Shown here: one piece after another, positions 18,267-54,258 of the stretch
Numbering within the stretch: the stretch's first letter is position 1
How the letters are laid out: each line of letters starts with the position of its first letter
From: Chamaelirium japonicum
Taxonomy: Eukaryota > Streptophyta > Magnoliopsida > Liliales > Melanthiaceae
Length of the DNA stretch: 64,000 nt
Direction of reading: 5' to 3'
Assembly: GCA_947650365.1 (NCBI GenBank)
Contig: OX393556.1
Location: 79,156,079 to 79,220,078, forward strand
Made by a program: the position numbers and the translations under genes
Notes under the pieces: generated by a model
What the model was told of the DNA's origin: nothing
Database searches by the model: none
Seen by the model: the letters and a program-made list of their open reading frames with translations, nothing else

Positions 18267-18369
18267 TGTAAATTCTGTGATAAATAAAGTGCTCTTTCAA
18301 AGTGTTCAAATATGCAAGTGTTCAATTTTTCAATTCAATTTCTGAAGCAGTTTCAAGTTATTCATATTC

Positions 18370-22000: not shown

Positions 22001-22199
22001 AGACGAAACGTCGGACCTACCGGTCCACATGAACCAACGGTCCAAGCAAGCCACCGGTCTGGGTAAACCGGACCGCCGGTTCAAAGCAACGATCAAGCCA
22101 ACCAAGGATTCAAGACAAGAAGAATCAATCTCCATCAATGTTCAAAACTCTGCCAAAAGATCGAAGAACAAAGCAGTAAACCTTCTCTGAAGTGCAGGT

Positions 22200-25100: not shown

Positions 25101-25280
25101 CGGTCAAATTTCAGTCGATCGGTCAAATTTACTACTGGATCGATCAAAAAACCATGTTTTTTGACCGATCACCCGATTCTTGACCGGTTGAATTTTGACC
25201 GATCGGTCAAAATTTGACCGATCGGTCAAATTTGACCGATCGGTCAAATTTGACCGATCGGTCCAAATTGACCGGTCAGT
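22200..25280. repeat. E1 3'-UTR tandem array, ~119-bp unit, about 23 copies
   Basis: The unit contains TTCTATTGGATCTGGCAAAA, ACCAAGGTTTTTTGCCGATC, CTCGAACCTTGACCGGATAA and paired CCGATCGG palindromes. Copies are very alike, indicating recent expansion. The last ~300 bp (from about 24960) change to a shorter GACCGATCGGTCAAA repeat. The unit is unlike that of E2 except for the shared CCGATCGG and GGCAAAAAACCAAGG-type motifs. Confidence 0.93.
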
Positions 25281-25386
25281 CCCTTTTTACACTAACACGC
25301 GACAAGTTTCTTCGTGTCCTTTTTTCAAAAGCAGGAAGTTGCTGTTCTTTGCACCAAATCCAAGCCAGCCAGAATGCACTCTAGCT

Positions 25387-25403
25387 AACTTGGAGGGGAT
25401 AAC
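25387..25403 (+). promoter_or_regulatory. E1 polypurine tract
   Basis: AACTTGGAGGGGATAAC lies immediately before the 3' LTR; E2 has nearly the same sequence (inverted) next to its 3' LTR. It would prime plus-strand DNA synthesis. Confidence 0.75.
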
Positions 25404-26190
25404 TGTGGGTGCAAATTTTGGCATGTATCCACCACGGGACCCACCGGCCCTGCCTGGTGGGCCCACGAGGACTACCACGGGACCCACCGGTCCTGCCTGG
25501 TGGGCCCACGAGGACTACCACGGGACCCACCGGCCCTGCCTGGTAGGCCCACGAGGACTACCACGGGACCCACCGGCCCTGCCTGGTGGGCCCACGAGGA
25601 CTACCACGGGACCCACCGGCCCTGCCTGGTGGGCCCACGAGGACTACCACGGGATCCACCGGCCCTGCCTGGTGGGCCCACGAGGACTACCACAGGACCC
25701 ACCGGTCCTGCCTGGAGGATCCCCAGATACGGCAGCAGAAACCGCCATTTACCTCGGAATTCCCCAACAGAGAATCCTATAAATAGCAGTGCCTTCGAAT
25801 GTAAAAGGATCCGAAAATTCTGATTTCCACTCTGAGATCTGACTTTCAGAACCAGAGCTCTGGGATTTTCAACTTCTGATCTACCATCTCTCCTTGATCT
25901 TCTTTTCTCCTTAAAAGAGATCAGAGGGTTTTCAGTGACACTCGGCCTATCGAGGTCACTTCAACTGAAGTGTTAGTGAATTCGGGTTGCTCCCTATAGC
26001 ACGGAGACGTAGGCTTCGGCTGAACTCCGAGATCACATCTCGTGTCATAATTTCTCTGATTGCATTCCTCTGTTTGCATATCAAAAGATTTCAACTCCAA
26101 TTGACAGATCAATCAACGATCTTCAACTCGAACCTTCAATTGACTGGTGCTGCGAGAGTCTTCGGGTCGGCACGAAGATTTTCCCACACA
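25404..26190 (+). repeat. E1 3' LTR (787 bp)
   Basis: Identical in layout to the 5' LTR but with seven rather than six 43-bp units, which exactly accounts for the 43-bp length difference. It ends CCCACACA at 26190 and is followed by the CTTCC duplication at 26191-26195. Confidence 0.95.
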
Positions 26191-30879: not shown

Positions 30880-32619
30880 ATGTTGGACTTCGCTGCGAGA
30901 CTGCTTCTATTATTGTTCGTCGTCACACAGGTGGCCGTAGCCTTCAAGGACGGTAAGATTTTCGAGCTACACCTGATTATAGGGGTGGTAAATCTTTTTT
31001 TCTTCTTTCTTTTTTTGTTGTCTATTTCAACAGCTCCGTTAAGTGCACCGGCGCGCGCTCTCTCTCTCTCTCTCTCATTCTGCACCTAACGAGGTGCATG
31101 CCCGTTTGATCTGGGGACTCGGCCTGCCTGATTAGGGCTGCAGTCCTCACCGTAAATAATGGACAATGCCTGCAGGGAGCCCCCCGTATACGGGAATCCC
31201 GTGCAGTGAGCCCCACGCCCATGCACCCTTGGGTCTGCACGGTATTCCCGTACGTATTCCGGGTCATTTTTTAATATTTTAAATACAGCTAGCTAGCTAG
31301 CTAGCCAGCCTCGCGCATACTGTCCGTCTTCTTTATCTTTCTCTTGGCTGCTGGCTGACCGACCACTAACTAGGGGCGCTACATGCATGCATGGGACCAT
31401 AATGGACGTACGGGGACGGGCGGTGGATCGTATCCTGTTGGCTGCTAACACCAAACAACAGGACTCTTGCCCAATGGGAACTTCGAGAAGGGGCCCAAGC
31501 CCAACCAGCTGAATGGAACCGTGGTGATCGACCCCCACGCCATCCCCGGATGGGACCTCTCTGGCTTGGTCGAGTTCATCGAGGCCGGCCATAAGCAGCG
31601 CGACATGCTGCTGGTGGTCCCCGAGGGACACTTCGCCGTCCGCCTCGGCAACGACGCCTCCATCAAGCAACGGGTGTCGGTCACCAAGGGCATGCACTAC
31701 TCCCTCACCTTCAGTGCCGCCCGAACCTGCGCCCAAGATGAGCGCCTCAACGTCTCCGTCACCCCCGACTCCGGCGTCCTCCCCATCCAGACCCTCTACA
31801 GCAGCCACGGATGGGACACCTACGCGTGGGCCTTCCGGGCCGAGTTCGACGCCGTCGACGTCGTCATCCACAACTGCGGCACCGAGGAGGACTCCGCCTG
31901 CGGGCCCCTCGTCGACGCCGTGGCCATCACCGCCCTCTACCCGCCCAGGCTCACAAACCGTAAGTCCCCGCGCGTTGGTCGATGTTTAATTTGTTATCGA
32001 TCTATCGAGGTAATTAGAAATTAATCATGCATGCACTGCTAGCGCTGCATCTCGATCGATCGATGGTCCAGTTAATATATTAACTAACAACGTACGTACA
32101 GAGAATGTATTGAAGAATGGGGACTTTGAGGAAGGGCCATACGTGTTCCCGAGAAGCTCGTGCGGCGTCCTCATCCCGCCCAATATCGAGGACGACCACT
32201 CGCCGCTCCCCGGATGGATGGTGGAGTCCCTCAAGGCCGTCAGGTACGTGGGGTCCGATATCTTCTCGGTGCCGCAGGGGAGGCGCGCGGTGGAGCTGCT
32301 GGCAGGCATGGAGAGCGCCCTCTCACAGGTGGCCCGCACCATCCCGGGGAAGCTCTACACGCTCACCTTCTCCGTGGGGGATGCGGGCGACGGTTGCGAG
32401 GGGCAGATGGTGGTGGAGGCCCACGCCGCGCAGGGCATCGCCATGATCCCCTACAGCTCAGCGGGGAGCGGCGGTTTCAAGCGGGGGATGCTCCGGTTCA
32501 CGGCCGTCAGCGAGCGCACGCGGATCTTGTTCTTCAGCTCTTACTACCACACCAGGGTCGACGGGGTACTCTGCGGGCCGGTCATTGACGACGTGAAGCT
32601 GCTGAGCTCTCGCAGATAG
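30880..32619 (+). CDS. DUF642 cell-wall protein (BIIDXI-like), three exons, 362 aa
   Basis: Exons are 30880-30952, 31462-31959 and 32102-32619, with GT-AG introns that keep the frame. Exon 1 gives a signal peptide (MLDFAARLLLLLFVVTQVAVA). The first galactose-binding-like domain starts DGLLPNGNFEKGPKP, with IPGWDLSG and the Cys motif NCGTEEDSACGPLVD; the second starts NVLKNGDFEEGPYVFPRSSCG, with PLPGWMVES and ending VLCGPVIDDVKL. This is the full DUF642 two-domain layout at normal length. Family members are secreted to the plant cell wall and associate with pectin methylesterase regulation and development. Exons 2-3 are strikingly GC-rich, as in many monocot genes. An AATAAAG signal at about 32685 is a plausible polyadenylation site. 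It is the only convincing intact host gene here. Confidence 0.95.
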
Positions 32620-34159: not shown

Positions 34160-36797
34160 GGATGTTTGGAGCCGATCGTAGAGTAAATGGATTGTACCAC
34201 CTGGAATACCTCCACCTTCCTCCACCTCCCCTCCTCCTGGTTTCTATGGAACTGCCTCTCCCTGATGCTAACCATTGTTACAAACGACTCGGCCATTTTT
34301 CTAAACCTCGACTTAGAAAATTATTCCTGACTGGAGCTCTAGGTCAAGGCCCTTTCTCCTCTTTATCTACCTGCATTGGTTGCAAGCTTATCAAAGCTAC
34401 CACCTTTTCTTTTTCCTTGAGTGTTTCTCAGAGTTGTGCTCCATTTGACTCGGTACGTGCACTCCAATATCTGGGGATCAACGCCTCTTCCTTCGATGTG
34501 TGGTTATCACTACTAAATCTCTTTTGTCGATAACTTCAGTCGGTACACTTAGATTTACCTCCTCCAGCATCTCTTTGAGGTTCCCCAAGTTTATCAGATC
34601 ATTGCCTCGATATTCCACACACAGTTCGGTTATCGTATCAAGACCTTTTAGTCTAATTGTACCCTCGAGTACCTCTATACTGCTATGCAAACTCTTCTTC
34701 AGTTCTATGTGACCCTTTTCCAATACTTATGCCTCAGATTCACTAGCAAAACGAAGTAGCAAAGAGGAAACACCGTCATATCCTTGAGACAACGCATGCT
34801 CTTCTTCTCTCTGCTTCCGTTTCTCGCACCTTTTAGGCTGAGACTTTCTTAACCTCGGTCAACCTCATCAATATCGCCCCTTCATCTGTCCTTCCGGGTG
34901 GTGTGTCCCCTGATGAGTGTCTTTTCTCCTCTCCTCCTGGCAACAGTATGCTTCGTTCTTTTGGGTGCACATGCTTTGTCTTCTTTTCACCCCACGAGCA
35001 TAAAAAACTGTTCGAAATGTTAGTTAAGTATGTCCTTTTGAAGATCAATTCCGAGCATAAGAGGTATCATTGCTATGTCCCCTTGACTCGTCGCCTTCGC
35101 ATGTCTTGGCACGTCTCCTTTGTCAAGGATGCCCCTTTCTACTCGATTACAACTCGTGACCTCACCTTTCTCGAGACTCCTCCTACCCTGTCTCTGACTC
35201 TTGAGCTTCTTCCACCACCTCTTTCGTCCTTTGCCTCTCCCCATATTTCTAGAGACACTTCTATGACCTCTTACACAGACACCTCTCCTCTTTCATACCC
35301 TCCTCTTCTTCATCAGCAATTAGTTCCTCTAGTACTCCTAGTATACCTGACACCTCTGGTACTCTATCTGTTTCGCCCAGCCAGTCTCCACTGGTCATGG
35401 ATCCTTGCTCATCATCTCGCTACCCTCAGTATGAGCATCGCCCACCTAATCACTTTAACTTTAGATTTGGGCCATCTGATTATTTTGGTCTTACCACCGT
35501 CATCTCCTACTCGCTACAGTTTACTGCTTTTCTTATTGCCCTCCACTCTGACCAAAAACCTCGGTCATATCGGAAGGCCGACAAGTTCCCTTAATGGCAG
35601 TAGGCCATAGACAAGGAATTCCAGGTTTTAATTTGAGCAGACTTAGACTTGGGACATCGTTCCCCTTTCTGCAAATGTTGAGCCTGTCAGTTGTCGCTAG
35701 GTCTACAAGGTCAAGCAACAACCTGATGGATCCATTGAGTGGCATAAAGCTCGGTTGGTGGCCCGTGGTTTCACTAAGAAATACGGGATAGACTATGAGA
35801 CCTTCTTGCTCATCGCTTAGATGACCACAGTTCGTGCCCTCTTGGCGGTTGCCACAGTTCATCACTGGCCTCTTCTTCAGATGGACATGAAGAATACCTT
35901 TCTTCACGGTGACCTTTCAAAAGTCGTCTACATGCAGCCGCTGCCCATTCAGTACACTCTTCCTCAACATGTTTGCCATCTTTGCCGAGCCATCTAATGC
36001 TTAAGCAGGCTTCTCGTGTTTGGTTTGAGTACTTTTGGCATGCCCTCACTGAGGTCGGCTTCGTTGAGAGTTCACAGGACCACTCATTGTTTATGCAATT
36101 CTCTTCTCAGGGTCGGGCGATACTCCTATTGTATGTTGATGACATGATCATCCCAGGTGATGACTCTGCTGCCATAAGCTCTCTTCAGCAATATCTCCGA
36201 CACCGGTTCCAGATGAAGGATTTAGATCCTCTTCACTACTTTCTCGGGCTTAAGATCGCTCATAGAGAGCAAGGGATTCTGCTCTCCCAGTAGAAATACA
36301 CCGTTGACATTCTTAGTCAAGCTGCTTTTTCCGATGATCGCTCTGCTGCTACTCCACATAAGCTTCACATGAAGTTTCATCCCATAGACAGTGAGCCTTT
36401 CCTAGACCCTACTCTGTACCGGCAGATCGTTAGTCAGTTGGTCTACCTTTGCATCACCCGGCTCGACATTGCTCACGCAGTCAGTATCTTCAGCCAGTTC
36501 CTCGACGTCCCTTACTCTGCTCACTGCATTGCTCTCCATCAGATTCTTTGTTATCTCAGAGGAACCAACACTCAGTCACTCTTTCTATCCTCGACTTCAT
36601 ATCTAGTCCTACATGCCTACTAGGATGTTAATTGGGGCAGGGATCTGACTACTCATCGATCGACTACTGGCTACTACTTGTTTCTTGGAGACTCTTTCAT
36701 CTCATAACGCAACAAGAAGCAGAGCATTGTCTCCTCTAATACCAAGGAGGAGTTTCGAGCCATGGCTTTTACCACCAAAGAGATAGTTTACTTACGA
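34160..36797 (+). pseudogene. Copia pol remains (integrase, RT, first part of RNase H)
   Basis: GAG-pre-integrase similarity is seen at 34162-34450 (HCYKRLGHFSKPRL, CIGCKLIKATTF), the integrase C-terminal part at 34903-35160 (LRSFGCTCFVFF), and RT at about 35750-36293 with the catalytic YVDDMI. RNase H begins near 36590. Frames shift repeatedly; no full product is possible. Confidence 0.85.
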
Positions 36798-37575
36798 TGT
36801 AACATTCATCCCAAATACACAAGATATTATCTGCTTTGCCCGTACTTGCATGGGAACTTTCCAAGAGGGTCACCCATCCTAGTATTACTCTTGATCGAGC
36901 ATGCTTAACTATGGAGTTCTTAAGAAATCCATAGCGGCGCACGGTTTTAAAACGCATCTTCTATGTTTGGGAGGAAAAATTATATAAGTAGCTCAGGATC
37001 TCCTTCTTTTCAGGCCTTGTGGAACTAACTCGTGGCCGTGTTCATCTCACCTTACCTCATCCATCTTGGCATCACAGCCTCAGAAGTCTTGGCTCTTGGT
37101 TGGGGTTGGCAATGGGTCGTGTCGGGTCGGGTTCGTGTCGTGTCCAAAACCCCTAGACCCGAACCCGACCCGTTTAACTAATCATGTCTAGATTCTAAAT
37201 CTATACCCGACCCGTTTATAAACGGGTAGAACCGATAAGACCCGTTTATCACACGGGTTTATTCAGTTGACCCGATCCCCGATCCAACTTAACCCGACAT
37301 TACTCGATAGACCTGCTGATACTATATATTATAGTATTGGATTGTGGGTAGACTCGACCCGACCCGACCCAACATGACCTGGTGAATTTTAAACGGGTCT
37401 TCCCGATTCTACCGTGTCTAGATCCTAAACCTGGACCCGACCCATTTATTAAACGGTTCTAATGTGTCGACCTGTTTACGACCTGAACCCATTTAGCCCT
37501 GACCCAGACCAGTTAACTTCGTGTCGGGTCTGCCGTGTCGGGTTCGAAATTGTCAGCCCTACGCTTGGTTATCAC
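36798..37575 (-). repeat. Cassandra (TRIM) LTR C1, interrupted by MITE copy B
   Basis: Ends TGTAACATTC at 36798 (TGTTACA on the minus strand). Positions 36848-36920 are a diverged 5S rRNA segment, inverted: CTTAACTATGGAGTTCTTA, ACCCATCCTAGTATTACTC correspond to the 5S A-box and the AGTAGTAC/GGATGGGTG region. A 5S domain inside the LTR is diagnostic of Cassandra. The MITE at 37101-37561 splits the LTR near its start; the last LTR bases and a polypurine run (CCACCCCCCTTA inverted) follow. Confidence 0.85.
37101..37561. mobile_element. hAT-type MITE, copy B (461 bp), inside Cassandra LTR
   Basis: Ends TGGGGTTGGCAATGGGTCGT and TTGTCAGCCCTA are inverted repeats. Flanks CTCTTGGT (37093-37100) and CGCTTGGT (37562-37569) match at 7 of 8 bases, as expected for hAT. 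The GACCCGT/ACGGGTC interior matches copy A in inverse orientation. Confidence 0.82.
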
Positions 37576-37653
37576 AATCCACCCCCCTTAAGGGCTACAC
37601 ATCCATGTATAGGACCCCTCAATTGCGAGAAGAATTTGGCTCGGATACCATTT
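37576..37653 (-). other. Cassandra internal region and primer-binding site
   Basis: Only about 80 bp separate the two LTRs, typical of a TRIM with no coding capacity. Reading minus, LTR end TGTTACA is followed by AAATGGTATCCGAGCC, a Met-tRNA-type primer-binding site; CCCTTAAGGGGGGTGG is the polypurine tract. Confidence 0.8.
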
Positions 37654-37950
37654 TGTAACATCCATCCCAAATATAAAAGATATTATCTGCTTTTCTTGTG
37701 CTTGTATGAGAACTTCCCAGGGGGTTACCCATACTAGTACTACTCTCATCCGAGCATGCTTAACTACGAAGTTCTTACGAAATCCATAGCGGCACACGGT
37801 TTTAAAACACGTTTTATATGTTTGGGTGAGATAATTATATTAGTAGCTCAATCAGGATCTCCTTCTCTCCAGGCCATGTGGGACTAACTTGTGGTCTTGT
37901 ACACCTTACCTCACCTTATCTATCTTGGCATCACAACCTCAGGAGTTAGC
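37654..37950 (-). repeat. Cassandra LTR C2 (5' LTR of the minus-strand copy)
   Basis: Collinear with C1 from TGTAACATCCATCCC through a 5S-like segment at 37700-37777 (CTAGTACTACTCTCATCCGA, AGCATGCTTAACTACGAAG) to ATCTTGGCATCACAACC. Similarity to C1 and C3 stops near 37950, so its outer end is missing or replaced. Confidence 0.8.
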
Positions 37951-38940: not shown

Positions 38941-39410
38941 CACTACAAAAAAAACAGTTATTACCGACGGACAATATCCGTCGGTAATATTAACATTCCG
39001 TCGGTAATGTTCTATAGCGACGGAAGATATTTCCGTCGCTGGCTGTCGGGAAAAAAGGCGTCGGGGAAAACAATACGACGGACCAAATATTACCGTCGGT
39101 AATAATAATTAATACCGACGGTAATATTAAAGCCGTCGGTAATATTTAATCAATTAAAAATTAATATAATATATTATTACCGACGAAACTTAAGAATCCG
39201 TCGGTAATATATAAGCATTTTACCGACGGTTATGGTCTATACTGTCGGTAATACTATATATATTACCGACGAATATATATATTGCCCGTCGGTAATAATA
39301 TATATATTACCGACGGATATTATATGCCGTCGGCAAATTGTTTATAATTTAAAAAAAATAAAAACATTATTACCGACGGAATAATTAATTTCCGTCGGTA
39401 ATAAGTATGT
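38941..39410. repeat. CACTA left terminal and subterminal repeats
   Basis: About fifteen TACCGACGG or CCGTCGGTA motifs, mostly paired as short hairpins of the form TTACCGACGGA...TCCGTCGGTAA. In En/Spm, such subterminal motifs bind TNPA. 39410-39670 is AT-rich with ATTACCACAATTTAT repeats. Confidence 0.88.
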
Positions 39411-39676
39411 TTTTTTTTAATAAATTTACCTAAATAATGTTATTTAATTCCTGTGATTTACAACAATACCACAATATATTACCACAATTTATCAAATATT
39501 ACCACAATTTATAAAATATTACCGTAAATTTTAAAATATTACCTAAATTGATAAAAAATTACAACAAATTATCAAATATTACCACAGTACCCGGCCGACA
39601 ATTATAGACAAGAACAAAAAATAACCACATATTAGAAAATAATATTTACACAATTCAGAACTGAGAGATGATACAT

Positions 39677-39865
39677 GCCCTATCTCAACCACCCCCGCCC
39701 GCCACCAACGCTGGTGCTCTCATCGATCCCCTGACGCCGCCCTATTTCAACCACCCCCGCCCACCACCAACGCTGGTGCTCTCATCGATCCCCTGACGCC
39801 GCCCTATCTCAACCACGCCCGCCCACCACCAACGCTCTCTCATCGATCCCCTGACGCCGCCCTGC
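39677..39865. repeat. 62-bp tandem repeat, three copies
   Basis: Unit GCCCTATCTCAACCACCCCC through CATCGATCCCCTGACGCC starts at 39677, 39739 and 39801; the third copy is 4 bp shorter. It is GC-rich in an AT-rich surround. Confidence 0.85.
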
Positions 39866-39914
39866 TCTTGTAATTAATATGTATTTGTTAAAAAAATGGT
39901 TTATATCTATAACT

Positions 39915-42900
39915 GAGTCTAAGCGTTAAAAAATGATAAGTTAGCGTGTTTCGGTTTTGAAATAGGTTTGGATTCGATCGGATCGGCATCCGATAATTCG
40001 AAGTTAGAATTATTCCGTATTTCGGACTTCCGAGCGGGTTCTAATTGGATATTTGACCAATTTATGCTCCGATTCACCGATTTAGAGTCTAAGTGTTGGA
40101 AAATCATAACTTAGCATGTTTCGGATATGAAATAAGTTTGGATTCGATCCGATCGTCATCGGATCGGCATCCGATAATTCGAAATTGGAATTATTCCGTA
40201 TTTCGGACTTGCGAGCGGGTTCTAATTGGATATTTGACCAATTTACGATTCGATTCACCGATTTAGAGTCTAAGTGTTGGAAAATCATAAGTTAGCGTGT
40301 TTCGGATATGAAATAGCTAGGTTTGGATTCGATCGGATCGTCATCGGATCGGCATCCGATAATTCGAACTTGGAATTATTCCGTATTTTGGACTTGCGAA
40401 CGAGTTCTAATTGGATATTTGACCAATTTACGCTCCGATTCACCGATTTAGAGTCTAAGTGTTGGAAAATCATAACTTAGCGTGTTTCGGATATGAAATA
40501 GGTTTGGATTTGATCCGATCGTCATCGGATCGGCATCCGATAATTCGAAGTTGGAATTATTCCGTATTTCGGACTTGCGAGCGAGTTCTAATTGGATATT
40601 TGACCAATTTACGCTCCGATTCACCGATTTAGAGTCAAAGTGTTGGAAAATCATAACTTAGCGTGTTTCGGATATGAAATAGGTTTGGATTCGATCCGAT
40701 CGTCATCGGATCGGCATCCGATAATTCGAACTTGGAATTATTCCGTATTTCGGACTTGCGAGCGGGTTCTAATTGGATATTTGACCAATTTATGATCCGA
40801 TTCACCGATTTAGAGTCTAAGTGTTGGAAAATCATAACTTAGCGTGTTTCGGATATGAAATAGCTAGGTTTGGATTCGATCGGATCGTCATCGGATCGGC
40901 ATCCGATAATTCGAAGTTGTAATTATTCCGTATTTTGGACTTGCGAGCGAGTTCTAATTGGATATTTGACCAATTTACGCTCCGATTCACCGATTTAGAG
41001 TCTAAGTGTTGGAAAAGCATAACTTAGCGGGTTTCGGATATGAAATAGGTTTGGATTCGATCCGATCATCATCGGATCGGCATCCGATAATTCAAAGTTG
41101 GAATTATTCCGTATTTCGGACTTGCGAGAGGGTTCTAATTGGATATTTGACCAATTTACGCTCCGATTCACCGATTTAGAGTCTAAGTGTTGGAAAATCA
41201 TAACTTAGCGTGTTTCGGATATGAAATAGGTTTGGATTCGATCCGATCCTCATCGGATCAGCATCCGATAATTCGAAGTTGGAATTATTCCGTATTTCGG
41301 ACTTGCGAGCGAGTTCTAATTGGATATTTGACCAATTTAAGCTCCGATTCACCGATTTAGAGTCTAAGTGTTGGAAAATCACAACTTAGCGTGTTTCGGA
41401 TATGAAATAGCTTTGGATTCGATCCGATCGTCATCGGATCGGCATCCGATAATTCGAACTTGGAATTATTCCGTATTTCGGACTTGCGAGCGGGTTCTAA
41501 TTGGATATTTGACCAATTTACGTTCCGATTCACCGATTTAGAGTCTAAGTGTTGGAAAATCATAACTTAGCGTGTTTCGGATATGAAATAGGTTTGGATT
41601 CGATCCGATCGTCATCAGATCGGCATCCGATAATTCGAACTTGGAATTATTCCGTATTTCGGACTTGCGAGCGGGTTCTAATTGGATATTTGACCAATTT
41701 ACGATCCGATTCACCGATTTAGAGTCTAAGTGGTTGAAAATCATAAGTTAGCGTGTTTCGGATATGAAATAGGTTTGGATTCGATCCGATCGTCATCGGA
41801 TCGGCATCCGATAATTCAAACTTGGAATTATTCCGTATTTCGGACTTGCGAGCGGATTCTAATTGGATATTTGACCAATTTACGTTCCGATTCACCGATT
41901 TAGAGTCTAAGTGTTGGAAAATCATAACTTAGCGTGTTTCGGATATGAAATAGCTAGGTTTGGATTCGATCCGATCGTCATCGGATCGGCATCCGATAAT
42001 TCGAACTTGGAATTATTTCGTATTTCGGACTTGCGAGCGGGTTCTAATTGGATATTTGACCAATTTACGATCCGATTCACCGATTTAGAGTCTAAGTGTT
42101 GGAAAATCATAACTTAGCGTGTTTCGGATATGAAATAGGTTTGGATTCGATCCGATCGTCATCGGATCGGCATCCGATAATTCGAAGTTGGAATTATTCC
42201 GTATTTTGGACTTGCGAGCGAGTTCTAATTGGATATTTGACCAATTTACGCTCCGATTCACTGATTTAGAGTCTAAGTGTTAGAAAATCATAACTTAGCG
42301 TGTTTCGGATATGAAATAGGTTTGGATTCGATCCGATCGTCATCGGATCGGCATCCGATAATTCGAAGTTGGAATTATTCCGTATTTCGGACTTGCGAGC
42401 GGGTTCTAATTGGATATTCGACCAATTTACGCTCCGATTCACCGATTTAGAGTCTAAGTGTTGGAAAATCATAACTTAGCATGTTTCGGATATGAAATAG
42501 GTTTGGATTTGATCCGATCGTCATCGGATCGGCATCCGATAATTCGAAGTTGGAATTATTCCGTATTTCGGACTTGCGAGCGAGTTCTAATTGGATATTT
42601 GACCAATTTACGCTCCGATTCACCGATTTAGAGTCTAAGTGTTGGAAAATCATAACTTAGCGTGTTTCGGATATGAAATAGGTTTGGATTCGATCCGATC
42701 GTCATCGGATCGGCATCCGATAATTCGAACTTGGAATTATTCCGTATTTCGGACTTGCGAGCGGGTTCTAATTGGATATTTGACCAATTTACGTTCCGAT
42801 TCACCGATTTAGAGTCTAAGTGTTGGAAAATCATAACTTAGCGTGTTTCGGATATGAAATAGGTTTGGATTCGATCCGATCGTCATCGGATCAGCATCCG

Positions 42901-44185
42901 ATAATTCGAACTTGGAATTATTCCATATTTCGGACTTGCGAGCGGGTTCTAATTGGATATTTGACCAATTTACGATCCGATTCACCGATTTAGAGTCTAA
43001 GTGTTGGAAAATTATAACTTAGCGTATTTCGGATATGAAATAGCTAGGTTTGGATTCGATCGGATCGTCATCGGATCGGCATTCGATAATTCGAAGTTGG
43101 AATTATTCCGTATTTCGGACTTGCGAGCGGGTTCTAATTGGATATTTGACCAATTTACGCTCCGATTCACCGATTTAGAGTCTAAGTGTTGGAAAATCAT
43201 AACTTAGCTTGTTTCGGATATGAAATAGGTTTGGATTCGATCCGATCGTCATCGGATCGGCATCCGATAATTCGAAGTTGGAATTATTCCGTATTTCAGA
43301 CTTGCGAGCGAGTTCTAATTGGATATTTGACCATTTTACGCTCCGATTCACCGATTTAGAGTCTAAGTGTTGGAAAATCATAACTTAGCGTGTTTCGGAT
43401 ATGAAATAGGTTTGGATTCGATCCGATCATCATCGGATCGGCATCCGATAATTCGAACTTGGAATTATTCCGTATTTCGGACTTGCGAGCGGGTTCTAAT
43501 TGGATATTTGACCAATTTACGTTCCGATTCACCGATTTAGAGTCTAAGTGTTGGAAAATCATAACTTAGCGTGTTTTAGGATATGAAATAGGTTTGGATT
43601 CGATCCGATCGTCATCGGATCGGCATCCGATAATTCGAAGTTGGAATTATTCCGTATTTCGGACTTGCGAGCGGGTTCTAATTGGATATTTGACCAATTT
43701 ACGATCCGATTCACCGATTTAGAGTCTAAGTGTTGGAAAATCATAAGTTAGCGTGTTTCGGATATGAAATAGGTTTGGATTCGATCCGATCGTCATCGGA
43801 TCGGAATCCGATAATTCGAACTTGGAATTATTTCGTATTTCGGACTTGCGAGCAGGTTCTAATTGGATATTTGACCAATTTACGTTCCGATTCACCGATT
43901 TAGAGTCTAAGTATTGGAAAATCATAACTTAGCGTGTTTCGGATATGAAATAGCTAGGTTTGGATTCGATTCGATCATCATCGGATCGGTATCCGATAAT
44001 TCGAACTTGGAATTATTCTGTATTTCGGACTTACGAGCGGGTTCTAATTGGATATTTGACCAATTTACAATCCGATTCACCGATTTAGAGTCTAAGTGTT
44101 GGAAAATCATAACTTAGCGTGTTTCGGATATGAAATAGCTAGGTTTGGATTCGATCGGATCGTCATCGGATCGGCATCAGATGAG
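39915..44185 (+). repeat. 181-bp satellite, left array, about 24 copies
   Basis: The unit includes GTGTTTCGGATATGAAATAG, GATTCGATCCGATCGTCATC, TTCCGTATTTCGGACTTGCG and CGATTTAGAGTCTAAGTGTT. Spacing is 181 bp with some 185-bp units carrying an extra TAGC. Copies are 90 percent or more alike by eye. Because 181 is not a multiple of three, the 60-68-codon frames it creates overlap and shift phase, so I do not call them genes. A degraded scrap recurs at about 44297-44352. Confidence 0.95.
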
Positions 44186-44426
44186 GGAGATATCCCTCTT
44201 CCAACGAGGCACACTCCTAGCATGATTAAAAAACAAAATTCTATCATTTAAAAGAAAAACAGAGGCTACATCATTACCATGAGAGAGAGAGAAAGACCAT
44301 TTACGATCCGATTTACCGATTTAGAGTCGAAGTGTTAGAAAATCATAAGTGTGATAATATGATCTAAACTCAAATTAGTAAGATTCATATTTTTTTCTAA
44401 TATTATAAAGATTAGTAAGTACCTGA

Positions 44427-46121
44427 TCATGAGGATGAGCCACCGCTAGACCGGTTTATGAATTCATAAAATTTACGCTCCAGTTCCCTGCGAGCTTCTC
44501 TTTCCTCATCGAGGGCCTTCTTCTCCGCCTCAACCCTCTGCTCGAGGGCCTGCCTCTGCTCTCGCTCCGCCTCAATCCTCTGCTCGAGGGCCTGCCTCTG
44601 CTCTCGCTCCGCGTCTAGCACAGACTGCAGCTGAGTGATAGCACCGGTCTGGGTGTCCCGTGCCCTCGAGCGCATACCCTCTCGTCCAAAGTAGGAGGAG
44701 GGCGTGACTCCAAAGCCCGTACAGAGGACACGGCCGTGCGTGGCAGGTCTCAGCACAGTATCCATCGCTGAGTCGACAGATACTGAGCTGGAGGAGGAGC
44801 CGGCCTCGCCCGACGGGGTCACCAGAAGTCGCATCCTCTCCTATATAAAAACAACCAATGATATTCAATGATATTTTATGGCATATGTATAAGAATATAT
44901 TAACAGTAATTTAATTACTTACCACTTGCGAGGCAACCCTGTCGTCCAGAAATGCCCCATCGATACGCCGCCTCCTAGAGGCCTCAAAAAGGTCAATCCT
45001 ATTAGGCTCGTGGCCCAAGGACTGTGTCTGTTGGACATATAAAATAAATAGATGAGTTAATATAACATGTATAGAGCTTTAAATAATAACAATGTTTGTA
45101 TCATTTACCAGCTGCTGGGCAAGCTGGGGCATGGAGGTCCTCCTCTTCACTGGAGCAGGTGTCGTCGAGGCACTTCTATTCTGCTTGCCTATAGCAGATT
45201 TTGCCTGTGTCAATCGATTAAATTTTGAAACATCAATACAAATTTTTAGTATAACATTAAAACAAGTACGAATCAACAAAATTATAATTATACCTGAAAG
45301 CTAGGGGTGGCCCAGTGAGCGACCAAAAACTGTAGAATGTGTAGCGGTGGCGCGTCTCTCGTCCCGGCCGCAGCCTGTACCTCCTCAGCCGGCTGGCCGA
45401 CCAAGTAACCGTAGAGCTGGTAGAGCTCGTGACGGTAATCCCTGTACCGCTCACCCATCGTCTTCCACAAGTCCTCCCGATGGGTGTCGGTTTCCATGTT
45501 CTCCCATTTAAATTTCTCTTGTAAAATCAATTTAGAAACAAGTCATTTTATCAAATCAAATTATAAAGAAGTACGATATTATTCTAAAATGCTTTAATGA
45601 AACTAACGTACCAAAAACTGTTGATACATCCTCTCCTTATAGGATGCATCAATGTTCTTCCACCCCCTTAACCCCACAATCGGGGCATTCCTCTCCTCCC
45701 GTACTATCATGTCGACCCACGTGGCGGCGTCAGAAGCGTGCTCGCCCACAAAGGTCCTACCGCTCCACTGTAGGGACAGCGGCTCGCGTAAGGCCGACAA
45801 GCGCTGGGCCGTCGTCACGCCCCGGTCGCCTACGTGCCTGGTCGACCCTGCAAATAAAAAATACATCAGTACTGAAGAAGTATTTACAACATGTATAAAA
45901 CTTTAGATCTAAACATTACCTGTGGGCGTAGACGCTGTAGCCGAGTGCTGAGCACTGCTCGAAGCTCCGGAGGCTGCGACCACAGCAGGAGCTGGTGTGG
46001 AGAGAGGAACAGCACTACCAGATCCGGACGGCTCAGCCTCGGACCCTGGGGTGGCAGGCGGAGCGCTCCGAGCTACCCCACCCCTGCCTCTGCCTCTACG
46101 AACATATGACCGTGATGCCAT
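44427..46121 (-). CDS. CACTA second protein (TNPA-like, Transposase_24/Ptta family), six exons
   Basis: Exons on the minus strand: 46121-45920, 45847-45612, 45515-45294, 45204-45109, 45027-44923, 44840-44427, all with GT-AG introns and matching phase, giving 424 aa. The N-terminus is basic and Pro/Ala/Ser-rich (MASRSYVRRGRGRGG). The middle carries MVREERNAPIVGLRGWKNID and RYRDYRHELYQLYGYLVGQP. The Transposase_24 core spans exons 4-5 (KRRTSMPQLAQQL, SLGHEPNRIDLFEASRRRRI, DGAFLDDRVASQV). The C-terminus is a strong coiled coil with two 13-residue AEREQRQALEQR(I/V)E units. In En/Spm the TNPA protein binds subterminal repeats and joins the ends; that role is inferred here. No stop or frameshift was seen, unlike its neighbour TNPD. 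It sits between two inverted blocks of the 181-bp satellite. Confidence 0.82.
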
Positions 46122-46129
46122 CTGAAATA

Positions 46130-46275
46130 ATTTAATTTACATATGAAACAGTAAGATTTACATATGAAACAATATGAAACAGTTTGATTTACATATGAAA
46201 CTGTATGATTTACATATGAAACAATATGAAACAATATGAACCCGCTCGCAATATGAAACAATATAAAACAATATG
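46130..46275. repeat. Short TACATATGAAACA repeat, left block
   Basis: Seven or so copies of a roughly 20-bp unit TGATTTACATATGAAACARTA directly upstream of the TNPA-like ATG; a second block lies at 47585-47745. Confidence 0.75.
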
Positions 46276-46279
46276 AAAC

Positions 46280-47575
46280 AGTTAGACTCTAAATCGGTGA
46301 ATCGGATCGTAAATTGGTCAAATATCCAATTAGAACCCGCTCGCAAGTCCGAAATACGGAATATAATTCCAAGTTCGAATTATCGGATGCCGATCCGATG
46401 ACGATCGGATCGAATCCAAACCTATTTCATATCTGAAACACGCTAACTTATGATTTTCCAACACTTAGACTCTAAATCGGTGAATCGGAGCGTAAATTGG
46501 TCAAATATCCAATTAAAACTCGCTCGCAAGTTCGAAATACGGAATAATTCCAACTTCGAATTATCGGATGCCGATCCGATTACGATCGGATCGAATCCAA
46601 ACCTATTTCATATCCGAAACACGCTAACTTATGATTTTCCAACACTTAGACTCTAAATCGGTGAATCAGATCGTAAATTGGTCAAATATCCAATTAGAAC
46701 CCACTCGCAAGTCCGAAATACGGAATAATTCCAAGTTGGAATTATCGGATGCCGATCCGATGACGATCGGATCGAATCCAAACCTATTTCATATCCGAAA
46801 CATGCTAACTTATGATTTTCCAACACTTAGACTCTAAATCGGTGAATCGGAGCGTAAATTGGTCAAATATCCAATTAGAACTCGCTCGCAAGTCCGAAAT
46901 ACGGAATAATTCCAACTTCGAATTATCGAATGCCGATCCGATGACGATCGGATTGAATCCAAACCTATTTCATTCCGAAACACGCTAACTTATGATTTTC
47001 CAACACTTAGACTCTAAATCGGTGAATCGGATCGTAAATTGGTCAAATATCCAATTAGAACCCGCTCGCAAGTTCGAAATACGGAATAATTCCAAGTTGG
47101 AATTATCGGATGCCGATCCGATGACGATCGGATCGAATCCAAATCTATTTCATATCCGAAACACGCTAACTTATGATTTTCCAACACTTAGACTCTAAAT
47201 CGGTGAATCGGAGCGTAAATTGGTCAAATATCCAATTAGAACTCGCTCGCAAGTCCGAAATACGGAATAATTCCAACTTCGAATTATCGGATGCCAATCC
47301 GATGACGATCGGATCGAATCCAAACCTATTTCATATCCGAAACACGCTAACTTATGATTTTCCAACACTTAGACTCTAAATCGGTGAATCGGATCGTAAA
47401 TTGGTCAAATATCCAATTAGAACCCGCTCGCAAGTCCGAAATACGGAATAATTCCAAGTTGGAATTATCGGATGCCGATCCGATGATGATCGGATCGAAT
47501 CCAAACCTATTTCATATCCGAAACACGCTAACTTATGATTTTCCAACTCTTAGACTCTAAATCGGTGAATCGATC
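46280..47575 (-). repeat. 181-bp satellite, right array, 7 copies, inverted
   Basis: Same unit as 39915-44185 but reverse-complemented (TATCCGAAACACGCTAACTT, CTCTAAATCGGTGAATCGG). Together with the left array it forms inverted arms of at least 1.3 kb around the TNPA-like gene. Confidence 0.95.
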
Positions 47576-47584
47576 GGATCGTAA

Positions 47585-47745
47585 ATCGGTGAAACGGTAT
47601 GATTTACATATGAAACGGTATGATTTACATATGAATCGGTGAAACGGTATGATTTACATATGAAACAATATGATATACATATGAAACAATATGATTTATA
47701 TATGAAACAATTTGATTTAAATATGAAACAATTTGATTTATATAC
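47585..47745. repeat. Short TACATATGAAAC repeat, right block
   Basis: About seven copies of GTATGATTTACATATGAAAC and variants between the satellite and the TNPD 3' end. Confidence 0.75.
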
Positions 47746-47748
47746 GGT

Positions 47749-50700
47749 CTAGTCATTTTCTGTCTCATCTCTGTCACTCTCATCGCTTCCCTCTTCTATT
47801 ATTTGATCTGCATTTGCTGTCCAGTTTATATTGTCGACATCTTCATTTTCGTCGTGCACTGCGTCGACAATGATTATCTCATCATTCTGGTATGCATCCA
47901 AATCATCATCGACGACCCCCGCATCCTTGTCTCCCATGTCATAAAAATCTCTGGATGGTGACCTGACTATAATTTGCCAACCTGGAGAGGTATTATCCGG
48001 TGCATAAAATATCTGTTACGCTTGAGAGGCAAGAATGAATGAATCTTCATATTGGGTATTCAATCTCTTGCCAATGTTGATGCTGATAAAACCGTATTTG
48101 TCGACATTATAACCAGTCCCGCGATTATTAACATCATACCAATCGCATTTGAATAATACGATCCGATTTTGGCCAAGGAATTTAATCTCGAGAATCTCGT
48201 TGAGGACACCGTAGAAGTCGATATTTTCTAATTCTTCTTGCTCACCGTTGACGACAACCCCATTATTTTGGGTTCTTTGTGATTTTTCACTATCTTTCGT
48301 CCAAAATCTATAACCGTTCACGATATAACCATCGTACGATATTGCGTCTTGCAAAGGTCTACAAGATAAGCGCCAGAGATCCTTATTCATCAACGGATCG
48401 TGGTTGTCGTGTAGCTCCTGTGCCTATAATAACCACATGACATTCATGATATGAACACATAATTTTTGTTCGGTAATGGATGTCAATGAAATTCAGTAAT
48501 GATGTGAATACTTGCGTGTTTCTCGAACCACGATGAGAATTCACGATCATGAATTTAGGGAGCATTTCGAGTACCCCGATTATTAATGATGGCTTTATGC
48601 TTCCTGTTTTACCGGTTATGAATTAGATTATAATTAGCACATATACTTAATGAATGGACTGAAAGAATGAGTAAATGATCGTAAAATGCTTACTCAATGA
48701 ATGACCACACTTCATCACATTGGCGCAACACATACATATGTGCCTGTTGAATCTCATCTACAGACAATCGACGGGTTTTGCCTCCTCCTACAGGTCTACC
48801 CATTTCGGCAAATATAGACAGACCCCCATCGAAGTCTATTGGACCACCGTCATAGTTCCGCTCAAGTTGATTGAATCGCGTGTCTATACCATGTAGGTAT
48901 CTTGAGCAGAATGTTAGATATTCTTCTGCTAGGTATCCTTCAGCAATTAATCCCTCCGGACGACTTTTATTACGAACATATGATTTCAATGTTCGCAAGT
49001 ACCTAATTTGAGAAAAAAATATTTGGATGAATATATCAAGAACGATCAAATACATTGTGCGAATGAGACGAGACGATTACCTCTCGATAAAATACATCCA
49101 CCGGTAATGAACTGGGTCGCCGAGTTTGACCTCATTTGCCAAGTGAACGGTCAAATGTACCATGACATCAAAGAAGGAAGGTGGAAATATCATCTCTAAC
49201 TTGCACAATATGAGCGCAATATCCCTCTCCATCTGTTCAAGTTGGTCCACTCTAAGTACCTTCGAGTACAACTGTCTGAAAAAAGTGCTGAGCTCAATTA
49301 ACGGACCGAACACCTGTTCGATTAAATTCCCACGTATAGCAAGAGATAACAATCGCTGCATAAGAACATGACAATCGTGGCTCTTTAATCCAGATAACTT
49401 CCGGCCGTTCTCTTGCACGCATCGTGCGATATTCGAAGAATAACCGTTTGGCGTTTTCACAGACCGTAGGAATACACATAAGGCTGCCTTTTGCTGTGAG
49501 CTCATGGTGTAGCATGCAACTGGCAACACATACTTATCCCCAATCTCTTGGGGATGAAGTGATTTTCGGATGCCCAACTCCTTAAGATCGAGACGAGATT
49601 TAAGATTATCCTTCGTCTTACCGTCGAGATTCAGCAGTGTTCCTATAATATTGTCACACACATTTTTCTCGATATGCATGACATCCAAGTTATGCCGCAA
49701 GAGTAGGCTGCTCCAGTACGGTAGTTTAAAGAAAATACTCTTCTTCTTCCAGTTATGCTCACGCAAAGAATCTTCATGCGTTCTCTTCTTTTTACCTTTT
49801 CCAAGTGCCACGGCATTAAGCTGATCCAATTCGCACAAGACTTCTACCCCCAAAAGCTGCTCCGGGGCCTTTGCAAGTTCCTTCTTGCCGTTGAAAGCTC
49901 TTTTGTTCTGCCTCCACTTATGGCCGTCAACAAGAAATCTTCGATGGCCCATATAACAGAACTTGCCTCCATTCTTCAACCGTAATGAATCTGTCTCCTT
50001 ATTGCATGTAGGGCACACTAATTTTCCTTTAGTACTCCACCCGGATAAGTTGGCATATGCAGGAAAATCGTTGATGGTCCATAGAAGTGCCGCATGCATC
50101 CGAAAATTCTGGCGCAACGAGGCATCATACGTATCGGCCCCAACTTCCCATAACTCGTTCAACTCTTCAATCAACGGCTGCAAGTAAACGTCAATATCAT
50201 TACCGGGCGACCTGGGTCCGAGAATGAGCAAGGAGAGCATTGTGTATGGCTTTTTTAAGCACATCCAGGGAGGCAAATTGTATGGAACTAGGACAACTGG
50301 CCAAATGCTGTACGACACACTCATATTCCCAAAGGGATTGAAGCCATCGCTAGCAAGCCCTAACCTGACGTTGCGAACTTCACATGCGAATTCAGGATAG
50401 GTATGATCAAAATCTTTCCACGTCAGAGAGTCGGCCGGATGTCTCATAATCCCGTCATCTGTACGTTCTCGTGCATGCCACCTCATGTGCTCAGCAGTCT
50501 TTGATGACATAAACAACCTCTGAAGCCTGTCCCTGAGCGGGAAGTATAGGAGAACCTTTGCAGATACATTTTTCTTCCTTCGACTGGTACTAGACTCGGC
50601 ATCCGTCTCTTTATATCTCGTTGCTCTGCATATGTGGCATGACCGCGCATGTTCGTACTCTTTCCGGTACAACATAAAATCGTTCACGCATGCATCAATT

Positions 50701-51356
50701 TTCTCATAACCCAGACCGAGATCTTTAATTGTCTTCTTCGCCTCGTAGAATGATTTCGGTACTGTCTCACCCATAGGAAAAGCCTTTTTCAGCAACTCTA
50801 CCAACATATTAAATGACTTATTACTCCAACCATTGAGGCACTTCAAATGAAGAAGCTTTACAGTGAAAGAGAGTTTTGAAAACTTCTCACACCCCGGGTA
50901 TAGAGGTTGTTCAGCATCTTTAAGCAATCTGTAGAACTTGTCCGCTTCGATATTGGGCTGATCACCTGATGGTGTTTCCGTGCCTATTCCACCTTGCAAA
51001 TCATGTATCATACCCTGCATGTCATCGTCATCGTCTGTATTAATATTATCATCAGCGATCACTGTGTTTGAAGTTTCACCGTGAGCTGCCATGGGGACTG
51101 CATCTAGCTCCTCACCGTGCGAGAACCAACGGGTATAGCTAATGTCAATGCCACGCATTACCAGATCAACCTCACATTCCTCTCGAACCTTCCTAATCAC
51201 CCTTCTGCAGTCTATACAGGGACACACAATTTTTCCATCAAGAGGTGCAAGACGCTCAAATGCAAAATCCAGAAATTTCCTGACTCCTTCTCTGTACTCT
51301 TGGCTCATGCGATTCGAATTACGCATCCAACTCTTATCGATCGAAGACATCTTCAT
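47749..51356 (-). pseudogene. CACTA transposase TNPD-like (tnp2/Transposase_21), two in-frame stops
   Basis: Exon 1 (51356-49081, about 758 aa) starts MKMSSIDKSWM. The transposase-associated domain has CPCIDCR; the tnp2 core has WHARERTDDGIMRHPADS, GLASDGFNPFGNMS, PLIEELNELWEVG and DFPAYANLSGWSTKG; the DUF4218-type end has LTVHLANEVKLGDPVHYRWM. Exon 2 is 49002-48694. Exon 3 (48603-48516) carries the IHDREFSSWFEKH motif, with a possible GC donor (CAC|GCAAGT). The last exon (48423-47749) holds the DUF4216-type YGFIS and FKCDWYDV region and an acidic tail. In-frame TAA codons occur at 48555-48557 and 48016-48018, where relatives have Lys and Gln. Exon 1, with the catalytic core, is still open. 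The protein would cut and join CACTA ends; as read here it is probably truncated. Confidence 0.88.
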
Positions 51357-51399
51357 CTATCTGGCTATACAACACCTGACATATAATTTCAAACAATGT

Positions 51400-51889
51400 T
51401 ATAAGACTCCGCACAATTTCAGTTTCGGTTCCCGGGTATGGAACACCGAACCAAAACTTCTACAGGCCATCCATATCCCTAATGGATGAGTGTATTATGA
51501 TGAGTAGACTAGTCACATAGTAAACCTAGGGTTGCTGGCCAGCATTTGAACTGCTGATAGTTCGAATGCTAGGCATAGCACCAAAGTTATGCGACAGTAA
51601 GTCAACAAGTCAGGGAGCCTCATCAAGTAAACACTTGGGGTATGACGGTTCTCTCTGTCGCTCGAGTAGATTTATGGCTTTAGCATACCTCATATCATAC
51701 CGAACCGACAAAAACCGACCATTTCGGTTTCGATTTCGGTTTTGGTTTTGATTTTTCGTAAACCGAAAAAAAATATAACCGACAAAACCCACACCAAAAC
51801 CGACCGACAAAACCGACGCTCACCCTAGTCTAAAAACTACATTTTGCCCCCCATTCCCCCATTCAATTCAGTTTTGATAGGATAAAAAT
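51400..51889. other. CACTA 5' region upstream of TNPD
   Basis: No gene seen. ACCGACAAAACCGACC/TTTCGGTTTCGGTTTTGG repeats at 51700-51820 form imperfect inverted pairs. The TNPD promoter should lie here, but no clear TATA was identified. Confidence 0.4.
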
Positions 51890-52104
51890 CAATGTTTTAA
51901 AACACGAAAACTCGACTCGACTCGAAACCTTAATGAGTCGAGTAGACACGACAACTCGGCTAAAACCCGATAAAACTCGAGTCGGATCGAAACTCAGCCG
52001 AGTCGGATCGAAACTCGAGTTTTGGACCGAGTCGGATCGAAACTCAGCCGAGTCGAGTCGACTCGGCCGAGTTTCGAGTCGACTCGGCGAGTTATAAAAC
52101 AGTG
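51890..52104. mobile_element. 215-bp MITE inside the CACTA element
   Basis: Ends CAATGTTTTAAAACACGAAAA and (inverted) CACTGTTTTATAACTCGCC are imperfect inverted repeats, and the direct repeat TAAAAAT flanks it at 51883-51889 and 52105-52111. The interior is rich in GACTCGAGTC-type palindromes. Superfamily not certain; 7-8 bp duplication would suit hAT. Confidence 0.65.
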
Positions 52105-52109
52105 TAAAA

Positions 52110-52490
52110 ATTACCAAATGAGGAATTAACCACAATATATTACCACAAATATATTACCACAAATTGTGGTATTGTTGTAAATCACAATATATTACCACAA
52201 GATAAAAATTACCACAATATATTACCTAAATAAAAATTACCATAATATATTACCTAAATAAATTACCACAATATATTACCACAATATATTACCACAATAT
52301 ATTGTGGTAATTTTGTATTGTTGTAATATATTGTGGTAATTTTGTGGTATTGTTGTAATATGTTGTGGTAATATATTGTGGTAATATATTCCTGTGATTT
52401 ACAACAATACCACAATATATTTAATTCCTGTGATTTTACCTAAATAAAAATTACCACAATATATTACCACAAATTAACCTAAGGGGGAAA
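52110..52490. repeat. AT-rich ACCACAATATATT repeat
   Basis: Many copies of ATTACCACAATATATTACC and its inverse AATATATTGTGGTAAT in both orientations. Similar sequence occurs near the left end of the transposon at 39460-39600. Confidence 0.75.
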
Positions 52491-52639
52491 GGGAGGAGGA
52501 GGAGGAGCTCACCAGCGATGGTCGGCAGTCCTCGAGAAGGAGGAGGAGCACTGGTGTCGCAGTCGGTGGCGCGAGAAAGGGGAGGGGTGGCCAGAGGTGC
52601 AAGGGAGGGGATGGGTGGCCGGCCGGAGGGGGGGTTTAG

Positions 52640-52670
52640 ATCGAGAGAGAGAGAGAGAGGTGAGGGGAGG

Positions 52671-52733
<63 letters not shown>

Positions 52734-52975
52734 AGGCTAGGGAGGCCGGGGAGGGGGGGAGGAGGCCGGGGAGAGAGAGAGAGAGGGCCGGGAGGCCGGG
52801 GAGGGGCGGAGGTCGGGAGGGGGATGGGTGGCTGGGAGGGGGATGGGTGGCTGGAGGGGATCGCGGGGCTGCCGGAGGGGGACGGGGTCGCCGGCGGGTC
52901 GGGTCGGTGAGAGAGAGAGAGAGATTGAGAGAGGGATCGCGGGGCTGTCGAAACACAAAAAGAAAAGGGTGCAGG
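52640..52975. repeat. GA microsatellite and G-rich low-complexity tract
   Basis: AGAGAG runs through about 52640-52731 (with one GGGGAGGAAG break) and 52910-52930. Between them are GGGAGGCCGGGGAGGGG-type G-rich repeats with G-quadruplex potential on the plus strand. Confidence 0.8.
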
Positions 52976-52994
52976 CCGCGGTGGATAAGTAAGG

Positions 52995-53740
52995 GGTTTT
53001 TACCGACGGAACTATAAGTTCCGTCGGTATAATTACTTTATACCGACGGTAGTATAACGTCCGTCGGTAAAAACCGCCGACGAAACTCAGGGTTCCATTT
53101 TTTTCCAAAGGCTCGGTTTTTACCCTGAGTTTCGTCGGGACAATTTTACCGACGGACATTTAATTACCGTCGGTATCGTACCGACGACCATATAATTTCC
53201 GTCGGTATAATTATTTATACCGACGGAAATATAACGTCCGTCGGTAAAAACCGCCGACGAAACTCAGGGTTCCATTTTTTTCCAGAGGCTCGGTTTTTAC
53301 CCTGAGTTTTGTCGGGACAATTTTACCGACGGATATTTAATTACCGTCGGTATGGTACCGACGGCCATAAAATGTCCGTCGGTATAATTAGTTATACCGA
53401 CGGACATATAAAGTCCGTCGGTAAAAATCTCCGACGAAACTCAGGGTTCCATTTTTTTCCAGAGGCTTGGTTTTTACCCTGAGTTTCGTCGTGACATTTT
53501 ACCGACGGTCTTTATGTAGCCATCGGGATAAAGTATATTACCGACGGTATATATATGTACCGTCGGTATAAATAATTGTACCGACGAATACTATTTGACC
53601 GTCGGTAATAAATGTGCAAAAAAAATTTAAAAAATTGAAGTTATAATACCGACGGATATTATAGTAACCGTCGGTAAAAAGTGTATTATTACCGACGGTG
53701 AAAATAATGTCCGTCGGTAAAGACCCTATTTCTTGTAGTG
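52995..53740. repeat. CACTA right subterminal repeats, three 177-bp modules with a long hairpin
   Basis: TACCGACGG/CCGTCGGTA motifs recur about 20 times. Three modules start at about 53076, 53253 and 53431; each holds CCGACGAAACTCAGGGT and its inverse ACCCTGAGTTTCGTCGG separated by about 28 bases with ATTTTTTTCC. The terminus TTTCTTGTAGTG ends at 53740. Confidence 0.9.
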
Positions 53741-53930: not shown

Positions 53931-54253
53931 CCAAGATCTAATAACCAAAAACCAAGACTCCTAAGGCTGTGATGCCAAGATGGATAAGGTGAGGTGGTGA
54001 GGTGAGGTGTACAAGGTCACGAGTTAGCCCCACATCGCCGGCAGAGAAGGAGATCATAAGCTACTTATATAATTTTCCTTCCCAAACATAGAAGACGCAT
54101 TTTAAAACCATACGTCGTTACTGATTTTATAAGAACTCTATAGTTAAGCATGCTCGGGCGAGAGTATTACGTAGATGGATAATTCCCTAGGAAGTTCTCG
54201 TGCAAGCATGAGCAAAGTGGATAATTTGTTGTGTGTTTAAGGTGAATGTTACA
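53931..54253 (+). repeat. Cassandra (TRIM) LTR C3, plus orientation
   Basis: Preceded by a polypurine tract TTAAGGGGGGTGGATT. It carries CTGTGATGCCAAGATGGATA as in C1/C2, a 5S-derived segment at 54131-54208 (AGAACTCTATAGTTAAGCAT, TGCTCGGGCGAGAGTATTAC) and ends GTGAATGTTACA at 54253. Copia RNase H sequence resumes five bases later. Confidence 0.85.
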
Positions 54254-54258
54254 TGCGA

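Follow-up and report, generated by a model that had tools for sequence, protein, structure and literature searches.

We found that a CACTA (En/Spm-type) transposon in a 64,000-nucleotide stretch of Chamaelirium japonicum DNA (contig OX393556.1, positions 79,156,079 to 79,220,078; hereafter the window) carries two arrays of one 181-bp satellite in opposite orientations. One array, arm 1, lies downstream of the TNPA-like gene of the element, and the other, arm 2, lies in the spacer between TNPD and TNPA (Table 1). In our judgement it is moderately probable that arm 2 is an inverted copy of a piece of the 3′ array, which expanded in the TNPD–TNPA spacer as a passenger.

Satellite units were counted by searching the whole window with a profile hidden Markov model (HMM) of the monomer at a threshold of E 0.01. 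This search returned 32 matches, with no satellite elsewhere in the window. Tandem Repeats Finder reported 23.1 copies of a 181-bp unit at 39977–44182 and 7.2 copies at 46277–47576, with 95% matches in each. These results agree with an earlier note on this DNA, which had described about 24 copies downstream of TNPA and seven inverted copies upstream, all inside a CACTA element; 22 of the downstream units are complete. Arm 1 is the array near the 3′ end of the element, ending about 1 kb or less from the 3′ terminus, and its partial units are the first 163 bp (39915–40077) and the last 104 bp (44081–44184). At its outermost edge, a diverged satellite fragment measured 34 bp (44317–44350) by HMM and about 54 bp (44297–44350) by alignment. 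This TNPA-side edge of arm 1 is broken by about 120 bp of non-satellite sequence (44174–44297), which replaces about 62 bp of a unit. Units of 185 bp, which contain a 4-bp insertion, made up 5 of the 22 complete units of arm 1 and none of the 7 in arm 2.

To compare the arms, we used the 29 complete units (22 from arm 1 and 7 from arm 2). The mean identity of two arm-1 units was 95.4% (231 pairs), that of two arm-2 units 96.1%, and that of one unit from each arm 95.3%; the consensus sequences of the two arms were 98.9% identical, and no position was fixed differently. Arm 2 showed an alternation of two monomer types, A and B, such that units at lag 2 were 97.1% identical (5 pairs) compared with 95.2% at lag 1 (6 pairs). 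Higher-order structure in arm 1 was slight, with 96.2% identity at lags 6 and 11 and 95.2–95.8% at all other lags between 1 and 13. When the same units were placed in a tree, those of arm 2 formed two small groups (four of type A and three of type B), each placed among arm-1 units of the same type. The arm label required 2 changes on this tree, whereas 500 shuffles gave 6.4 on average and never so few.

Several points weigh against this interpretation. The tree is weak, with no starred branch, and arm 2 as one clade survives an approximately unbiased (AU) test (p 0.09); because of this weak support, other histories may account for the arms, including separate capture of both. The order of events, moreover, is read from a single locus. 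An assembly error may also lie behind the arrangement of the arms, although one site that carries G in 7 of 7 arm-2 units and in 3 of 22 arm-1 units argues against such an error.

The surroundings of arm 2 hold possible traces of its arrival. Arm 2 interrupts a 21-bp minisatellite (TGAAACAATATGATTTACATA type), which occupies most of the remaining TNPD–TNPA spacer. Within the block on the TNPA side is a scrap of the satellite, an exact 14-mer for which simple arithmetic gives about 0.0004 expected occurrences; the 20-bp match around it (46232–46251) reached a BLAST E of only 0.17 over the whole window. On the TNPD side, a CACCGATT piece lies near 47640 and is not significant alone (E 13).

We propose that arm 1 would be the resident array, as in the precedent of Chenopodium quinoa, and that an inverted copy of at least two neighbouring monomers, one of type A and one of type B, would have entered the minisatellite in the TNPD–TNPA spacer, probably through a template switch while a break was being repaired. 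The copied segment would then have grown to seven units through unequal exchange, and both arms would be carried as passengers, with no role under selection. Incidentally, a transcript running over both arms and the TNPA between them would fold its arms into a nearly perfect duplex of 1.3 kb, which may supply small RNAs for methylating the element in cis. From these patterns we infer which way the copying ran, how the repair took place and that the arms are passengers.

A different explanation, which we regard as possible but doubtful, is that the arms constitute a self-silencing hairpin. Read-through from TNPD to TNPA would yield a 1.3-kb double-stranded RNA, which would be processed into 21–24-nt RNAs, leading to methylation of the arms and switching off the element in cis, by analogy with the Mu killer (Muk) locus, which silences MuDR. 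The earlier note had expected arms of at least 1.3 kb that could pair, and the sizes bear this out: among the alignments of arm 2 with arm 1 that were listed, the 8 longest spanned 1297–1305 bp with 94.7–95.8% identity. Arm 1 contains an exact complement for 72.3% of the 21-mers and 68.5% of the 24-mers of arm 2, with exact complementarity extending over 161 nt at most. When folded without the natural 2.1-kb loop, arm 2 and the nearest 1305 nt of arm 1 gave a predicted energy of −2092 kcal/mol with 1167 arm-to-arm pairs, compared with −719 kcal/mol and 85 pairs when arm 2 was turned round and −781 kcal/mol and 48 pairs when TNPA replaced arm 2. This fold and its two controls predict that the arms, like those of Muk-like loci, are inverted repeats able to form a long duplex. 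The motif AATAAA, which might signal early polyadenylation between TNPA and arm 1, is absent from the 242 nt after the TNPA stop, but this absence says little because plant poly(A) signals are loose. Continuous tnpD–tnpA transcripts have been reported in lettuce (PMC8195511). Because contiguous tnpD–tnpA transcripts are also described for other CACTA elements, and the large tnpD reading frame of En/Spm comes from the Intron-1 region of tnpA (PMC2613891), a transcript through both arms would be a reasonable premise. In addition, transgene hairpins are described as becoming methylated within the inverted repeat (PMC9263138).

The changes among the monomers also bear on the hairpin. Relative to the consensus, the 29 units contained 61 distinct changes, 53 of them at the 75 sites (of 181) that carry C or G. 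C to T changes numbered 38 (20 in CG, 6 in CHG and 12 in CHH contexts), compared with 2 from T to C. This footprint, tallied against the consensus rather than an ancestor and with no baseline from non-repeat DNA, appears as expected of methylated cytosines, CHH included, and fits general repeat silencing. It does not single out hairpin silencing, however, because a control 119-bp array in an unrelated Gypsy element (22 units) shows a like bias, in that 9 of its 12 distinct changes affect C or G, and 7 run from C to T compared with 1 from T to C; the footprint thus looks general to repeats here. Also against hairpin silencing, the arms contain no recognisable TNPD, TNPA or subterminal sequence (zero copies of the subterminal motif, and short matches between the 181-bp unit and TNPD or TNPA at E 4.5 or more, a chance level), so small RNAs from the arms would target the satellite alone.

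We consider it unlikely that the element took up each arm separately from a satellite array of the genome, with their opposite orientations arising by chance. Both main monomer types are common to the arms, with no fixed difference, as independent capture would allow, and in C. quinoa the published view is that CACTA elements captured satellite arrays (PMC8978399). However, the arm-2 units fall among the types of arm 1 and share near-fixed bases with them, and independent capture would require the satellite to have landed twice in the same element yet nowhere else in the window. Inverted copying of a piece of arm 1, followed by expansion, is the explanation that we favour over these two.

The signals around TNPA raise another explanation. 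An acceptor-like TTATTTCAG stands directly before the TNPA ATG, and a donor-like CAG/GTACTT stands four bases past the stop. A count along the whole minus strand of the element gave 5 TTTCAG and 3 CAGGTA, the latter being the exon-1 donor of TNPA, its exon-3 donor and the donor-like site after the stop. Because these motifs are so few in the element, placement of both signals by chance appears unlikely, although the placement was noticed after the fact. The inverted arms lie beyond these two signals on either side, and their pairing in the precursor RNA could promote back-splicing of the six exons, producing a circular RNA with the whole TNPA frame, or could sequester TNPA from linear mRNA. 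If this were true, the transposon would control the processing of its own regulator by mirrored satellites. We consider this explanation very unlikely. Transposons and their reverse complements have been noted around maize circular RNAs, but according to the same review, plants may not rely mainly on the pairing of introns to form such RNAs (PMC7248317). In addition, the non-satellite stretch at 44174–44297 contains an acceptor-like site at 44217; with this acceptor, the post-stop donor would belong to a short intron in the 3′ untranslated region (UTR), ending before the main arm 1.

We give almost no credence to the suggestion, made in the earlier note, that the satellite is a substitute array of TNPA binding sites, or to its being a TNPA decoy. 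The ratio of observed to expected CpG is 2.07–2.09 in the satellite and 2.2 and 3.08 in the subterminal regions, compared with 0.87–0.98 in TNPA and TNPD, and a head-to-head 9-bp pair (CGATCCGAT/ATCGGATCG) in both units examined recalls the inverted subterminal motifs; but CpG is also abundant in two further satellite arrays of the window, both in retrotransposons (1.76 and 1.55). The motif TACCGACGG, with 12 copies in the 3′ subterminal region and 23 in the 5′ one, occurs nowhere between them or outside the element in the window, and the satellite consensus, which was searched rather than every unit, contains no match to it even when 3 of its 9 bases may differ. For the satellite to serve in this way, TNPA would have to recognise a sequence that does not resemble the subterminal motif of its own element.

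The two genes of the element differ in their state. The TNPD product contains the Pfam domains Transpos_assoc, Transposase_21 (PF02992, E 2.2e-100), DUF4218 and DUF4216. Its reading frame is interrupted by two in-frame nonsense codons, at 48557 and 48018; the remaining breaks can be read as introns, for which exon 48603–48516 would use a GC–AG donor. Because of the two nonsense codons, TNPD is probably not functional. All six exons of TNPA have GT–AG borders, and the spliced reading gives 424 amino acids with no internal stops, which match Transposase_24 (PF03004, E 5.4e-16); the C-terminal part has only coiled-coil-type Pfam matches, all of them sub-threshold. The observation of the earlier note that TNPA is open and TNPD has stops is therefore correct, but its suggestion that selection or recency differs between the two genes is not shown by this contrast. 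At the TNPD rate of 2 stops per approximately 1115 codons, simple arithmetic indicates that a neutral gene of 424 codons stays open about 47% of the time, and thus an open TNPA beside a broken TNPD is no evidence of different selection.

As a separate matter, derivation of the satellite from a gene of the element was rejected as far as it could be tested. A sensitive search with the unit found no gene source and returned the arms, the 44297–44350 fragment, the scrap at 46232–46251 and short matches at E 1.5 or more. An exact 31-base satellite pattern had 0 matches in a viral contig collection, and no relatives of TNPD were found in viral and genome contig collections, as expected for plant DNA.

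The limits of the element are marked by CACTACAAAAAA at 38941 and, on the other strand, CACTACAAGAAA at 53740 (CACTAC / GTAGTG); CACTACAA is present at 38941 and has an inverted copy at 53740, so that the element has CACTA at both termini. The flanks are AAT before and CAA after, with no exact 3-bp target duplication at these ends, and CAA stands on both sides only with one extra T. Along the element, TNPD is followed by a spacer, then by TNPA and finally by a long 3′ portion. The inverted CACTA ends, the subterminal motif in two orientations, a TNPD with Transposase_21 and a TNPA with Transposase_24 place the element among CACTA (En/Spm) transposons, of which it is an old and probably non-autonomous member. 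Between arm 1 and the 3′ subterminal repeats, three GC-rich units of 62 bp (39677–39863) stand in AT-rich surroundings.

Table 1. Positions of the CACTA element and its parts in the window.
Feature	Coordinates	Strand	Details and basis
CACTA (En/Spm-type) element	38941–53740	−	14.8 kb; 5′ end 53740, 3′ end 38941; from ends, terminal inverted repeat (TIR) comparison and TACCGACGG repeats
5′ subterminal repeats	53001–53740		23 TACCGACGG motifs, both orientations
TNPD transposase gene	47752–51356	−	Exons approximately 51356–49081, 49002–48694, 48603–48516, 48423–47752; from Pfam and exon reading
21-bp minisatellite, TNPD side of arm 2	47588–47744		CACCGATT piece at approximately 47634–47643
Arm 2 (between TNPD and TNPA)	46277–47587	−	7 complete inverted units, 46297–47564; A–B dimer alternation
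21-bp minisatellite (TGAAACAATATGATTTACATA type), TNPA side of arm 2	46123–46276		14-bp exact satellite scrap at 46238–46251
TNPA-like gene	44427–46121	−	Exons 46121–45920, 45847–45612, 45515–45294, 45204–45109, 45027–44923, 44840–44427
Possible 3′-UTR intron of TNPA	44217–44422	−	Donor CAG/GTACTT after the stop, acceptor-like TGCTAG/GAGTG; read from sequence only
Diverged satellite fragment, 3′ side of TNPA, outermost edge of arm 1	44297–44350	+	HMM and alignment
Arm 1 (downstream of TNPA)	39915–44184	+	22 complete units, plus partial units of 163 bp and 104 bp
3′ subterminal repeats	38941–39400		12 TACCGACGG motifs, both orientations

Outside the element, positions 1–27560 hold two Gypsy-type long terminal repeat (LTR) retrotransposons in opposite orientations. 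One of them (approximately 11550–26190) has 717-bp terminal direct repeats that are 99% identical and open gag and pol, and seems to be inserted into the other. Both contain a 118–119-bp tandem array (669–2402 and 22212–25089) and 43-bp repeats near their ends; the 43-bp array at 25431–25715 is CpG-poor (0.51). Four satellite arrays of the window, which belong to two unrelated element types (39915–44184, 46277–47587, 669–2402 and 22212–25089), are CpG-rich, with observed/expected ratios of 1.55–2.09, and in the three of them whose changes were tallied, the changes resembled cytosine deamination despite this CpG richness. An open frame at 31449–32021 encodes DUF642 (E 4.3e-68) and is probably a host gene; the next open frame is at 32014–32619. 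Two direct repeats of approximately 295 bp, 83% identical, span 36797–37946 and look like part of a Cassandra-type element, in which the LTRs contain 5S sequence. The second of these repeats holds a 5S ribosomal RNA match on the minus strand (37695–37812, 45.4 bits), which was the single match to known RNA families in the window and lies outside the CACTA element. Another relative lies at 53943–54254, just past the 5′ end of the CACTA element.

Among known systems, the Muk locus resembles the present element in having an inverted repeat of transposon origin that could give a long hairpin RNA. The Muk hairpin carries transposase-gene and terminal sequence, whereas here the satellite alone would pair. 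The arrangement offers a natural candidate for a long hairpin in a transposon, on which the connection of inverted repeats with small RNAs and methylation could be measured.

Similar to En/Spm of maize, Tam1 and Tgmt*, the element has CACTA termini, inverted and direct subterminal motifs, and TNPD followed by a multi-exon TNPA (PMC2613891); by contrast, the available text of that paper does not contain the word ‘satellite’ and mentions no satellite arms, of which there are two here. Physical linkage of CACTA sequence and satellite is also known from CACTA-derived satellites, such as CficCl-61-40 of Chenopodium and the Atenspm arrays, but the CficCl-61-40 monomer comes from the tnp2 domain, according to the part of the paper available (PMC7320549), whereas matches between the present unit and the genes are at chance level. 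Another close likeness is to C. quinoa, in which a 5.55-kb array of a 171-bp satellite lies near the 3′ end of a 16.5-kb, Jozin-like CACTA element (PMC8978399). The two elements share a similar length, a Transposase_21 gene and an array of several kilobases of a 170–180-bp satellite near the 3′ end, the 171-bp and 181-bp monomers being likened by description and not by alignment. The available text on C. quinoa describes one 3′ array, whereas a second, inverted array lies between TNPD and TNPA here. Among the literature matches listed, judged by title and the start of the abstract, we recognised no description of two inverted satellite arrays in one CACTA element, which is not proof of absence. 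Carriage by CACTA elements is among the routes proposed for the spread of satellites in plant genomes, and a mirror-image second array with possible traces of its arrival provides a series of events that can be tested in sibling copies. Arm 1 is thus a further case of the known CACTA-borne 3′ satellite array, and the inverted arm between the genes is what sets this element apart.

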